From positions 124,001-188,000 of the forward strand of contig CAMWKH010000002.1 of the NCBI GenBank assembly GCA_947174805.1: a stretch of DNA of 64,000 nt, in the 5' to 3' direction. The translations under genes were made by a program, and so were the position numbers. Of this stretch, positions 28,489-34,571 are shown one piece after another. The notes under the pieces were generated by a model. That model worked only from the letters and a program-made list of their open reading frames with translations. It searched no databases and had not been told where the DNA came from. This DNA is from an uncultured Roseburia sp. (lineage in GTDB: Bacteria > Bacillota > Clostridia > Lachnospirales > Lachnospiraceae). Each line of letters starts with the position of its first letter. Position 1 is the first letter of the stretch.

Positions 28489-28658
28489 GCGTCTTCCCCC
28501 ATTTTTATAATCGCAAAATATTCTTTCTCCATAGTAACAATTTTTTCCGTTAAAGTCAAATACCGGAGAAAATGAAGATTTCAACATTTTCCCTGCATAT
28601 TATTTCCCAAATTGGTAATTCTACCAGAGAAAAGAAAATATTAGAAAAGGAGATTGCT

Positions 28659-29126
28659 ATGATTTTAACCGAAAAAGAAACTACTGCCTTAAAAGAGCTG
28701 CAGACTCAGGAGAAAATCTGCATGGACCACTACAACTTGTGCGCCGCAAGCGCAAAGGACCAGGGATTAAAAGATTTATTTTCCCAGATTGCCAAGGATG
28801 AGCAGGACCATTACAGAGTGCTTGGAAAACTTATGGAAGGAGAGATTCCCGCACTGCCGGAAAGCCGGTTGGATTCTTCCTCCTATCACCCCGCCGCTGC
28901 CTATGACAGCACCTCCAACCAGGGAGACAAACAGCACGACGAAATCCTTTGTTCCGACAGTATCGGCAATGAAAAAATGGTATCCAGCGACTACAATGCG
29001 GGAGTCTTCCGTTTTGGCTCCAGCGATGTAAGAAAGGTGTTAAACCGCATCCAGACCCAGGAACAGCAGCATGCGGAAATGATTTACAAATATAAACAGC
29101 AGAACGGCATGACAGCTTCCTGCTAA
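28659..29126 (+). CDS. Spore coat (CotF/ferritin-like) protein
   Basis: MILTEKETTALKELQTQEKICMDHYNLCAASAKDQGLKDLFSQIAKDEQDHYRVL. Confidence 0.78.
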   Translation: MILTEKETTALKELQTQEKICMDHYNLCAASAKDQGLKDLFSQIAKDEQDHYRVLGKLMEGEIPALPESRLDSSSYHPAAAYDSTSNQGDKQHDEILCSDSIGNEKMVSSDYNAGVFRFGSSDVRKVLNRIQTQEQQHAEMIYKYKQQNGMTASC

Positions 29127-29136
29127 CTGCCCAGAG

Positions 29137-29178
29137 AGAGGCATCCCTTGTATGTGACAAAGGATGCTTCTTTTTAAA
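29137..29178 (+). terminator. Intrinsic terminator of the coat-like gene
   Basis: AGGCATCCCTTG...CAAAGGATGCTTCTTTTT. Confidence 0.8.
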
Positions 29179-29197: not shown

Positions 29198-29226
29198 TTG
29201 ACTTTCCCTGTCCCACATTGTACAAT
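29198..29226 (+). promoter_or_regulatory. Vegetative promoter of the MATE leader
   Basis: TTGACT-17 bp-TACAAT. Confidence 0.75.
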
Positions 29227-29264
29227 AAATTTGTCCGATATATAAATAAACATAAGTAAAAACG

Positions 29265-29350
29265 TACTCTTTGCCACCGGGTAAAGAGAGAACGCGTCAA
29301 ACTTCCTATCCATAGGTCTTTGGAGATAGAAAGCTTGGCGCTTTTTTTAA
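29265..29350 (+). promoter_or_regulatory. Structured 5' leader with attenuator-like terminator upstream of the MATE gene
   Basis: Hairpin CUCUUU-GCC-ACC-GGG-U-AAAGAG, then long stem GCGUCAA(A)CUU(C)CUAUC.../GAUAG(A)AAG(C)UUGGCGC ending in 7 U, ~20 nt before the coding start. Confidence 0.6.
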
Positions 29351-29366
29351 AGAAGAGAGGAAAACT

Positions 29367-30680
29367 ATGAGAGAAAACACACTGTTAAAAGAATTTTTCC
29401 GCTATGTGTGCCTAAACATCCTTGGGATGATTGGCCTATCCTGCTATATTTTAGCGGACACCTTTTTTATCGCCAGGGGGCTGGGGGCAAAGGGCTTAAC
29501 CGCCTTAAACCTGGCTATTCCCATATACAGTTTCGTCAACGGATGCGGTCTTATGCTGGGCATGGGAGGAGCCACAAAATATTCTATATTTTTAGGGAAA
29601 AAAGAATACCGGCAGGGAAACCGGTGTTTTTTCCATGTGATTTTGGCTGCATCCTCTCTGTCCTTGGTTTTTATCCTTGCCGGAATTTTTTTCTCCGAAA
29701 CCCTTGCCCTGGCATTGGGAGCAGACAGGGAAGTGTTTTGGATGACAAAAACATATTTACAGATTATCCTGCTTTTCTCCCCGGCCTTTATTTTCAATGG
29801 CATCTTTGTGTGCTTTGTGAGAAATGACGGAAATCCCAGCCTTTCCATGACGGCAATGCTTGTGGGAAGTTTATCCAATATCATACTGGACTACATTTTG
29901 ATATTTCCTTTACAACTTGGGATTTTAGGCGCTGTTTTGGCTACAGGATGTTCCCCGGTGATTAGCATGTGCATTCTCCTAAAACACAAATTTTCCGGGA
30001 AAAACCACTTCGGTTTGGAAAAATCCCAATTTTCACCGGGATTTATGGCAGGTATTCTGTCCCTTGGCATCCCCTCCCTGATAACAGAGGTTGCCTCCGG
30101 CATTGCAATGATTGTTTTTAACTCTCTAATTCTTGGACTTTCTGGCAACACCGGAGTTGCAGCTTACGGCGTTGTGGCAAATCTCTCCCTGGTGGTAACT
30201 TCCATTTTCACAGGAATCGCCCAGGGCTTTCAGCCGCTTGCCAGCCATTCCTATGGGAGAGGAAAGAAAGAAGAGATCCAAAAACTCCTCCACTATGCCC
30301 TGACTTTGGTGCTTTTCATTTCCGGGATTACTTACCTTGTTTTCTTTTGCGCCGCAGCCCCCATCACAACCGCTTTTAACAGCGAAGGAAACCAAGACCT
30401 GCAAAAGATTGCCGTTATGGGGATGAAACTTTATTTTACCTCCATTCCCTTTATGGGGCTTAATATTATCCTTTCCACCTATTTTACCTCCGGGGAACAA
30501 GCCCTTCCGGCCCAGGGAATTTCACTGTCCAGGGGATTCTTTCTCCTTCTGCCCACAGCCTTTCTCTTAGCCCGCTTATTTGGCATGACAGGGGTGTTTC
30601 TGTCCTGCCCTGTCACTGAATTTATTGTTTTTGCAATGGGACTCTTGTTTTACTGTAAGAGAAACCCTCCCATGCTATAA
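29367..30680 (+). CDS. MATE family efflux transporter
   Basis: 437 aa multi-spanning protein; MLGMGGATKYSIFLGKKE, NGIFVCFVRNDGNPSLSM. Confidence 0.9.
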   Translation: MRENTLLKEFFRYVCLNILGMIGLSCYILADTFFIARGLGAKGLTALNLAIPIYSFVNGCGLMLGMGGATKYSIFLGKKEYRQGNRCFFHVILAASSLSLVFILAGIFFSETLALALGADREVFWMTKTYLQIILLFSPAFIFNGIFVCFVRNDGNPSLSMTAMLVGSLSNIILDYILIFPLQLGILGAVLATGCSPVISMCILLKHKFSGKNHFGLEKSQFSPGFMAGILSLGIPSLITEVASGIAMIVFNSLILGLSGNTGVAAYGVVANLSLVVTSIFTGIAQGFQPLASHSYGRGKKEEIQKLLHYALTLVLFISGITYLVFFCAAAPITTAFNSEGNQDLQKIAVMGMKLYFTSIPFMGLNIILSTYFTSGEQALPAQGISLSRGFFLLLPTAFLLARLFGMTGVFLSCPVTEFIVFAMGLLFYCKRNPPML

Positions 30681-31586
30681 AAATTTTTTCTTTTTAAAAT
30701 AGCAGAGGCTCACAATCACAATGAGAACACTGACTCCAAATACCACCGGGTAGCTGTATACCCATTTCAGCTCCGGCATATTTTCAAAATTCATACCGTA
30801 CCACCCTGCAATAAGGGAGAGGGGCAGAAATATGGTGGTGACAATGGTCAAAAGCTTCATGATACTGTTCTGGCGGATTTCAATTTCCGCCTGATACACA
30901 TCCTGAACCTGCATGGCATACTCCCTAAGCACCTGGATTTCCTGCTGAAGCCTCTGGCACCGCTCCATAAATAACTGGTATCCCCTGCCGTCTTTCACCT
31001 CCAGATAGTCAGAACTGTCCTCTGCTATGGCCTCCCCCATATTAATCATCTGTCCATAGTAACAATAGAAACGGGAAATTTCCTTTTTCAGCCCAAGCAT
31101 CTGATAATTAAAATTACCGGTATCTTTTTTTAAAACCAACTCCTCCATATCCGCTATAGTGCGCTCTAACTCCGCAACATAAAGGGTATCCTCCTCAATA
31201 AAGGACATGAGAAATTCTGCTAAAAACCTGTCCGGGGAATATTTTTTCCCCTCTCCCCGCCGCACTATTTTTTCTACAGTTTCCCGGACAATCTCCCCCT
31301 CGTCCACAAAAATCATTTTTCCGGGAAGAAGATAGAGACTGAAGGCATACTGACGTTTTTCCTTTTTCTTTACGGGAATGTGAAAGGTACACAATAGATA
31401 ATTGGCATGATGCTCTAATTTACAGAAAAAAACAGCGTCGGGATTTTGAAGGATGGAAAACTCCTCCCTGAGTTTTAACGCTCTGGCAAAACTCTCCTCA
31501 TCAAAGATTCCAATTCCTCCATGTATCCCTTCCCACTCTTTTTTTCCAAGGGTTTGGATTCCCTCTTCTCCCAGGGCATAGTACAT
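30675..31586 (-). CDS. CorA-type divalent cation transporter
   Basis: C-terminal TTIFLPLSLIAGWYGMNFENMPELKW (GMN motif). Confidence 0.92.
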   Translation of the reverse strand: MYYALGEEGIQTLGKKEWEGIHGGIGIFDEESFARALKLREEFSILQNPDAVFFCKLEHHANYLLCTFHIPVKKKEKRQYAFSLYLLPGKMIFVDEGEIVRETVEKIVRRGEGKKYSPDRFLAEFLMSFIEEDTLYVAELERTIADMEELVLKKDTGNFNYQMLGLKKEISRFYCYYGQMINMGEAIAEDSSDYLEVKDGRGYQLFMERCQRLQQEIQVLREYAMQVQDVYQAEIEIRQNSIMKLLTIVTTIFLPLSLIAGWYGMNFENMPELKWVYSYPVVFGVSVLIVIVSLCYFKKKKFL

Positions 31587-31690
31587 AAAATATCCTTCTT
31601 TCAAAAAGTATCGAATGTTATATACAGTTTTCTCCTCCCCAACCCGGATTTATGCAAAAATTTCAAACAAAATTATATTCTTTTATTTTT

Positions 31691-31831: not shown

Positions 31832-33988
31832 CTATCTGTTTTTTGCTATTCCCGCATGTAAATCAAACTCGCCTCTCCCACTGTAAGGACGGAACAAAAG
31901 ATAAAAAAATCCCGCCGCACAGAGAATAGCTCCAAGGGTTCCCACACTTAAAACTCCGGTTAAAATAAATGTGCCTAACTGGTAAATACACATTGCCGCC
32001 CCATAGGCCAAGACCGTCTGGTATCCAATGGCAAACCAGAACCACTTCCTATTGTTCATCTCTCTTTTTATGGCTCCCATAGCCGCAAAGCAGGGGGCGC
32101 ACAGTAAGTTAAACACCAGGAATCCGTAGGCTGCCGCCCCCGTCATAATAGATGCCAGGGACCCCCAGATTTCCGCACCGTCCTCTGCAACTTCCCCAAA
32201 TCCAAAGAGCACGCCAAATGCAGCCACCACGTTCTCCTTGGCGATAAGCCCCGTAACTGCTGCAACTGCCATCTTCCAGCCTTCTCCTCCCTGGGTCCAG
32301 CCAAGGGGGGCAAAGATTGGTGCAATCACGCCTCCAATCATGGCAAGGATACTGGCATCTAAATCTTCCACCATGCCAAAACTTCCATCCCTCCATCCAA
32401 AGCTCATGAAAAACCACAGAACGATGGTGGAGAGGAGGATAAGGGTCCCCGCCTTTTTGATAAAGGACCAGCCCCGCTCCCACATACTCATCAGCACATT
32501 TCCCACTGTGGGCATGTGGTAGGCAGGCAGCTCCATGACAAAGGGCGCCGGCTCTCCGGCAAAGATTTTTGTCTTTTTTAGTATAATTCCAGAGCAGATA
32601 ATAGCGGCGATTCCCACAAAGTATGCGCTCCATGCCACCCAGCCTGCATTGTGGAAAAATGCCCCGGAAATCAATGCGATGATAGGCAGCTTTGCCCCGC
32701 AGGGAACAAACGTGGTGGTCATAATGGTCATCCTGCGGTCCCTGTCATTTTCTATGGTGCGGCTTGCCATAATACCCGGAACGCCGCATCCGCTTCCGAT
32801 TAACATAGGGATAAAAGATTTCCCCGACAATCCGAATTTACGGAAAATCCGGTCCATAATAAAGGCCACCCTTGCCATATATCCGCAGGCTTCCAAAAAT
32901 GCCAAAAATGCAAACAATACCAGCATCTGGGGCACAAAACCTAAAACTGCCCCCACACCTGCCACAATACCGTCTAAAACCAACCCAGAAAGCCAGTCTG
33001 CGCAGCCTATTGCCAGAAGGCCTGACTCCACCGCAGAAGGGATGAGTTCGCCGAATAGTACATCATTTGTCCAGTCTGTCACAATCGTTCCAATGGTTGT
33101 CACAGAGACATAGTATACCAGGAACATGACTGCTGCAAATATAGGAAGAGCCAGAAGGCGGTTTGTGACAATTTTATCAATTTTATCCGATGCCGTCAAT
33201 GTTCTCCCCCTGTCCTGTTTTGTCACACATGCCTTGATTATGGAGGAGATATACAGATAGCGCTCATTGGTAATAATGCTCTCCACGTCATCATCCATGG
33301 CATCTTCCAGTCTCTGAATCTCCCTGTCTGCCCTGGGCAGAACGGAAAGCAGTTCTCCAATTTTACTGTCCCTCTCCAAAATCTTAATGGCAAAGAATCG
33401 TCTCTGGGCTTCTTCAACAGAGGAATCCAGCTTTTTTTCTACCTCCCCGATGGCTTTTTCCACCTCATCCCCAAATTTATGTACCGGGGCCATACCTTTT
33501 TTCCCCGCCTGGGCAACCGCCTCCGCCGCTGCTTTCTCCACTCCTCTTCCTTTTAAGGCAGAAATCTCCACAACCTGGCATCCCAAGGCCTTTCCCAGCT
33601 TATCTATATAGATTTTGTCTCCGTTTTTCTCCACCAGATCCATCATATTCACTGCCATAACCACCGGGATTCCCAACTCCATCAACTGGGTGGTCAGATA
33701 CAGGTTTCGCTCAATATTTGTCCCGTCCACAATGTTTAAAATCACATCCGGTCTTTCGTTTATCAGGTATGTCCTGGCAACTACCTCCTCCAAGGTGTAA
33801 GGGGACAGGGAATAAATCCCGGGCAAATCCAAAATCACCACGTCTTTTTTCCCTTTTAACTTTCCTTCTTTTTTCTCAACGGTAACACCCGGCCAGTTGC
33901 CCACAAACTGATTGGAACCTGTCAGGGCATTAAACAAAGTAGTCTTGCCGCAGTTGGGGTTTCCTGCCAATGCAATTTTTACTGCCAT
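31832..33988 (-). CDS. feoB: Ferrous iron transporter B
   Basis: ALAGNPNCGKTTLFNALTG, GNWPGVTVEKKEG, and gate motifs LIGSGCGVPGIMASRTI. Confidence 0.96.
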   Translation of the reverse strand: MAVKIALAGNPNCGKTTLFNALTGSNQFVGNWPGVTVEKKEGKLKGKKDVVILDLPGIYSLSPYTLEEVVARTYLINERPDVILNIVDGTNIERNLYLTTQLMELGIPVVMAVNMMDLVEKNGDKIYIDKLGKALGCQVVEISALKGRGVEKAAAEAVAQAGKKGMAPVHKFGDEVEKAIGEVEKKLDSSVEEAQRRFFAIKILERDSKIGELLSVLPRADREIQRLEDAMDDDVESIITNERYLYISSIIKACVTKQDRGRTLTASDKIDKIVTNRLLALPIFAAVMFLVYYVSVTTIGTIVTDWTNDVLFGELIPSAVESGLLAIGCADWLSGLVLDGIVAGVGAVLGFVPQMLVLFAFLAFLEACGYMARVAFIMDRIFRKFGLSGKSFIPMLIGSGCGVPGIMASRTIENDRDRRMTIMTTTFVPCGAKLPIIALISGAFFHNAGWVAWSAYFVGIAAIICSGIILKKTKIFAGEPAPFVMELPAYHMPTVGNVLMSMWERGWSFIKKAGTLILLSTIVLWFFMSFGWRDGSFGMVEDLDASILAMIGGVIAPIFAPLGWTQGGEGWKMAVAAVTGLIAKENVVAAFGVLFGFGEVAEDGAEIWGSLASIMTGAAAYGFLVFNLLCAPCFAAMGAIKREMNNRKWFWFAIGYQTVLAYGAAMCIYQLGTFILTGVLSVGTLGAILCAAGFFYLLFRPYSGRGEFDLHAGIAKNR

Positions 33989-34107
33989 TTTTTTCTCCTT
34001 TTCTCTCTTTTCTTTTTTAAAATATGTGTCATCAATTTAAACTAACTATTGTTTCTCCCATCTTTCAATAGTAAGATATAACTAACCTATACAGAAAAAA
34101 AATAGAC

Positions 34108-34329
34108 TCATTCCACCTCAATCATGGAGGCATCGTCTTTCCGAAGTGACAGTTCATATCCTCTCACCGTAACTTCCACCGGGTCCCCCAAAGGTGCCAC
34201 TTTTCTCACAAATAACTCCACGCCCTTGGTAATGCCCATATCCATAATTCGTCTTTTGACTGGACCGGCACCGGAAAGCCTTTTCACCTTTACCGTCTCC
34301 CCGCAGGGAATTTCCTTTAATGTTTTCAT
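34108..34329 (-). CDS. feoA: FeoA family protein
   Basis: VKRRIMDMGITKGVELFVRKVAPLGDPVEVTVRGYELSLRKDDA. Confidence 0.93.
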   Translation of the reverse strand: MKTLKEIPCGETVKVKRLSGAGPVKRRIMDMGITKGVELFVRKVAPLGDPVEVTVRGYELSLRKDDASMIEVE

Positions 34330-34361
34330 AAGAATCCTCCTCTTCTCTTCTTTATAAAAAA

Positions 34362-34571
34362 TTACACAAATATTTTATTGGCCATATCTCTCCCTAAGGC
34401 CACCCGGGAATCCTTGATATTCACAATTATATTTCCCTCCATGGCACTCACCACGGTGACAAATCCTCCCGCTACAAATCCCAGATTTTCCAAAAAACGC
34501 CTGGTCTCCTCTCTGCCTCCCACTTTTTTTATCCTGCTTTTTTCCCCTTCTCTCACCATAGACAACGGCAT
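34362..34571 (-). CDS. FeoA family protein (second copy)
   Basis: RRFLENLGFVAGGFVTVVSAMEGNIIVNIKDSRVALGRDMANKI. Confidence 0.88.
   Translation of the reverse strand: MPLSMVREGEKSRIKKVGGREETRRFLENLGFVAGGFVTVVSAMEGNIIVNIKDSRVALGRDMANKIFV

Follow-up and report, generated by a model that had tools for sequence, protein, structure and literature searches.

Guanidine-IV riboswitches (the mepA motif, or GGAM-1) consist of two pseudoknot-joined hairpins, the second of which is a transcription terminator, and they switch their genes ON with guanidine, which favors the loop–loop helix and so hinders completion of the terminator (PMC7736828, PMC11611296, PMC12186494). The genes with which they are associated code for SugE, MATE and PnuC proteins (PMC7736828). 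A variant of this class, Gd4v, whose orphan ligand is not guanidine, shares the layout of two hairpins, kissing loops and terminator, and precedes some MATE genes, with which it occurs in gut bacteria (PMC9788692). Here we analyze a leader of about 135 nucleotides (nt) upstream of a gene for a MATE family efflux transporter in a 64,000-nt stretch of DNA (hereinafter the window; contig CAMWKH010000002.1, positions 124,001 to 188,000 of the forward strand) from an uncultured Roseburia sp. We assign this leader, with high confidence, to the guanidine-IV class as a transcriptional ON switch for the MATE gene, by which it adds a member with a minor natural loop variant to an already published class. 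It resembles the described guanidine-IV members in the kissing two-hairpin layout, the use of the second hairpin (P2) as terminator, the ON-switch arrangement, the spacing of the conserved G, U and G of loop 2, and the MATE, SMR and PnuC genes found downstream of the family. It differs at two places in loop 2, where the first position is C and not the usual G, and 29323 is G and not A. The guanidine-I riboswitch (ykkC, RF00442) is comparable in its published ligand and exporter theme but has another architecture.

An earlier sequence-only reading of the window had recognized the promoter, the leader with its small hairpin, and a terminator with a T7 tract ahead of the ribosome-binding site, all of which are present, although its description of the terminator as near-perfect was slightly generous given two mismatches in the stem and a 14-nt loop. 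It could name no riboswitch class for the leader; homology, covariation and gene context now place it in guanidine-IV, to which a loop reading GCCACCGGGU, another that contains AGGUC, and the MATE gene downstream had pointed. The parts of the locus are as follows:

29198..29226, + strand: promoter, TTGACT (29198-29203), 17 nt, TACAAT (29221-29226); 10 of 12 consensus matches
29263..29349, + strand: guanidine-IV-type riboswitch, aptamer plus terminator (the whole covariance-model match); 72.1 bits
29267..29288, + strand: P1 hairpin, CUCUUUGCC-ACCG-GGUAAAGAG, with the loop ACCG; -11.0 kcal/mol
29276..29278, + strand: kissing-helix strand in loop 1, ACC, pairing with 29315-29317, from covariation
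29294..29341, + strand: P2 hairpin, the intrinsic terminator stem, GCGUCAA...UUGGCGC, with paired columns in relatives
29311..29324, + strand: loop 2, CAUAGGUCUUUGGA, with AGG and a later G near-invariant by column counts
29315..29317, + strand: kissing-helix strand in loop 2, GGU, from covariation
29342..29348, + strand: terminator U-tract (T7), from the sequence
29354..29360, + strand: ribosome-binding site AGAGAGG, from the sequence, preceding the ATG at 29367
29367..30680, + strand: the regulated gene, a MATE family efflux transporter of 437 amino acids; Pfam MatE, 130 bits

The assignment begins with homology. In 150 genomes from the window's family, the MATE proteins most similar to that of the window (45–60% identical) come from 29 genomes, and 22 of these 29 homologues have an obvious relative of the leader upstream; inspection added three more, with copies that are complete, partial or at the operon level (L031, L045, and L034 through L070). 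A covariance model built from the leaders of the 22 other homologues, with the window's own leader excluded, recovers the latter at 72.1 bits (E 3.2e-14), as the only clear match in its 3.1-Mb assembly, where the next hit scores 18.8 bits. The same model detects this RNA in 97 of 299 family genomes, 7 of 15 genus genomes and 23 of 399 phylum genomes. In one locus of the same genus (L198) the leader is nearly letter-identical while the upstream flank has diverged, with TTGACT and the first part of the spacer retained. A loose DNA pattern searched over the family returned mostly unrelated chance matches, and a scan for the MATE protein in a set of named genomes, which excludes the window's own and near records, gave no match.

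Structural evidence comes from an alignment of 100 members, in which standard pairs make up 94.7% of cells, as against 68.1% in shuffles and 37.6–41.4% with slid partners. Changes on both sides are seen in 25 of 27 pairs; for P1 they are seen in 7/7 modelled pairs (93.9% of cells paired) and for P2 in 16/17 (94.1%). The upper P2 stem also shows a compensatory change from A-U to G-C at 29308-29327 in L200, another locus of the same genus. The kissing helix (29276-29278/29315-29317) lies outside the covariance model and hence was not fitted by it; its first pair is nonetheless A-U in 48 members, G-C in 47 and G-U in 4, and its second changes from C-G to U-A in two. Thus, the ACC/GGU complementarity in the window corresponds to a pseudoknot that covaries over its relatives, and it supplies the alternative fold that the antitermination proposed in the sequence-only reading needs. 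The segment GCCACCGGGU at 29273-29282 matches the conserved P1 loop region of the relatives, CC(A/G)CCGGG. The leader folds at -30.4 kcal/mol compared to -20.6 kcal/mol in shuffles (z -3.1), and both loop motifs occur together once in the window and in none of 100 shuffles.

That reading had further suggested an Rfam search beside the covariation analysis over homologous leaders. The leader is conserved and covaries. Rfam 15 at gathering score does not match it; at relaxed E-values, the matches obtained (CRISPR-DR50, STnc400, LhrC, mir-1 and rliE) lie far under the cut-off and were rejected as chance. This silence is uninformative, because the Rfam 15 riboswitch families at gathering score match none of 20 loci with canonical guanidine-IV leaders, yielding tRNA only. 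The library as searched appears to hold no guanidine-IV model, and Rfam-based annotation will therefore miss a class that is common in this family yet invisible to it.

The anatomy of the leader fits the published mechanism. P2 pairs a lower stem (29294-29300/29335-29341) and an upper stem (29302-29310/29325-29333) around a 14-nt loop, interrupted by an A.C and a C.A mismatch, and together with U7 (29294-29348) it forms a Rho-independent terminator upstream of the MATE gene. A simple terminator scan did not list the hairpin, probably because of its interrupted stem and large loop. The window also keeps G316, U317 and G322 at the positions that, by published numbering and spacing, correspond to G66, U67 and G72 of the L. 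lactis guanidine-IV riboswitch, residues that are 97% conserved and the mutation of which abolishes binding. The likely decision is between termination near 29348 and readthrough. By analogy with the published members, P2 would close fully without guanidine, and with its U7 would end transcription before the MATE gene. With guanidine bound, the ACC of loop 1 and the GGU of loop 2 would kiss and hold the hairpins together, leaving the terminator incomplete and letting the polymerase read into the gene. The spacer between P1 and P2 is 5 nt (AGAAC, 29289-29293) with the terminator closed and 13 nt if only upper P2 is formed; as closure of the lower stem would leave just those 5 nt between the hairpins, the kissing state is predicted to block it.

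The gene context of the relatives agrees with the published association with SugE/SMR, MATE and PnuC. Across 131 members, the first downstream gene codes for MATE in 66, a count partly inflated by the training of the model on MATE leaders, PnuC (NMN_transporter) in 20, SMR (SugE/Gdx) in 16 and a PNPOx-like protein in 15, the rest being a few small groups and singletons, including one DUF1989 protein. In 117 further named loci found by a loop pattern alone, the genes are PnuC (77), MATE (16), SMR (4) and PNPOx (2), with 18 unassigned. The window's genome (assembly 92% complete) has no SMR gene, and neither it nor the window has a guanidine-I riboswitch by the Rfam model RF00442. In light of these two absences, we propose that the product of 29367-30680 is a plausible guanidine exporter, and export of guanidine would be the outcome of the switch. 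This offers a likely inducer and a likely substrate for an otherwise generic 'multidrug' MATE pump, which itself resembles the FepA, PRK09575 and MepA-like NCBIfam models with scores under their equivalog cut-offs. The proposal of metabolite- or drug-controlled antitermination of an efflux pump was thus right in kind, as borne out by homology, covariation and gene context, but a drug ligand is not indicated.

The PNPOx-like family (PF12900) recurs as the first gene in L070, L099, L112, L118, L134, L136, L139, L141, L142, L144, L171, L172, L175, L191 and L194; in L070 the riboswitch is followed by the PNPOx-like gene and then by the MATE gene. The DUF1989 protein, of the urea carboxylase-associated type, lies downstream of a leader at L186:1501-1591 (-), a placement that fits guanidine degradation.

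Two points weigh against the guanidine-IV assignment. The link to the published members runs through spacing, architecture and gene context, and position 29311, where loop 2 adjoins the P2 stem, is C instead of G. This is probably the same position as L. lactis G62, where an engineered G62C greatly weakened binding and misfolded the RNA. G62 is typical of the class but not defining, being 90% conserved in the publication and G in 84% of our alignment A2; the equivalent of 29311 is A, C or U in 16 of the 100 relatives.

Set against the consensus GUUAGGYCNNNGAA, loop 2 of the window (CAUAGGUCUUUGGA) carries two substitutions, G to C at 29311 and, after the conserved G, A to G at 29323. When 117 members were counted stem-anchored, all five with C at the equivalent of 29311 had a facing G at either of two positions, as compared to 5 of the 112 others (p 1.5e-6). 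These five amount to about four independent cases, since the window and L198 share ancestry. C311/G323 itself is present in the window, L198, L094 and L179, while L156 combines the C with a G one position on; of 397 family genomes, the window's own is the one in which the exact pattern was found. The co-occurrence suggests that a C-G pair may replace a G-A contact in loop 2, and the natural C/G variant offers a ready probe of the binding pocket. One could go further and posit a distinct guanidine-IV pocket, with a Watson-Crick pair for the non-canonical G-A and an altered affinity or another ligand, such as a substituted guanidine. We consider this very unlikely, and it can be argued that the sub-type still senses guanidine, because two of the five C-bearing members (L156 and L179) precede SMR genes.

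The same two departures from the loop-2 consensus, along with the common layout and the MATE association in gut bacteria (PMC9788692), could be taken to place the leader in Gd4v, which we regard as very unlikely. The non-G difference of that variant (D1) may correspond to the G72 equivalent, which is G in the window, or to the G62 equivalent, which is C. The extra hairpin (D2) is absent from the window's leader, the loop 2 of which is 14 nt without insertion as in canonical members, and the downstream gene is neither a transaminase nor a GNAT. Moreover, the C/G relatives L156 and L179 precede genes of the SMR class, which has never been associated with Gd4v (PMC9788692), and the expected insertion is carried by a separate, aminotransferase-linked member. 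The latter (L160:121-224 (+)), which lies before a class I/II aminotransferase gene, has a hairpin inserted into its loop 2 and scores 44 bits with the canonical model, is a probable member of Gd4v. An extra loop-2 hairpin is also found in L122:1701-1811 (-), L149:1701-1810 (-) and L153:121-228 (+). Since L149 and L153 are followed first by PnuC and MATE genes, respectively, and neither by a transaminase gene, the extra hairpin may not alone mark Gd4v.

A plain attenuator or terminator, with no sensing of a small molecule, would account for the functional-looking terminator that stands before the gene. It is most improbable as an explanation: near-invariant unpaired loop residues and loop–loop covariation over many genera are not expected of it, the leader starts from a promoter of its own, and genes of several unrelated classes follow its relatives. 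A leader-peptide or antibiotic-responsive attenuator, to which the frequent annotation of MATE pumps as multidrug exporters might point, is barely credible, given that the conserved signal is an RNA structure and that PnuC, SMR, PNPOx and DUF1989 genes also follow this RNA.

The guanidine-IV leader appears to be an independent transcript, as the gene upstream has its own terminator-like hairpin:

28572-29126: ferritin-like/Coat F gene, the upstream neighbor
29136..29176, + strand: terminator-like hairpin of that gene, GCATCC...GGATGC-type stem with a T-rich tail; -19.2 kcal/mol

The TTGACT-17-TACAAT element is the top promoter-like site of the region, of the sigma-70 type, with a predicted transcription start near 29232. 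Beyond the MATE gene, a CorA-like gene (30675-31604), named from Pfam, adjoins an ordinary minus-strand group (31832-34571) of a FeoB-like GTPase/transporter and two small FeoA-like genes, for which the Feo names come from reading the sequence.
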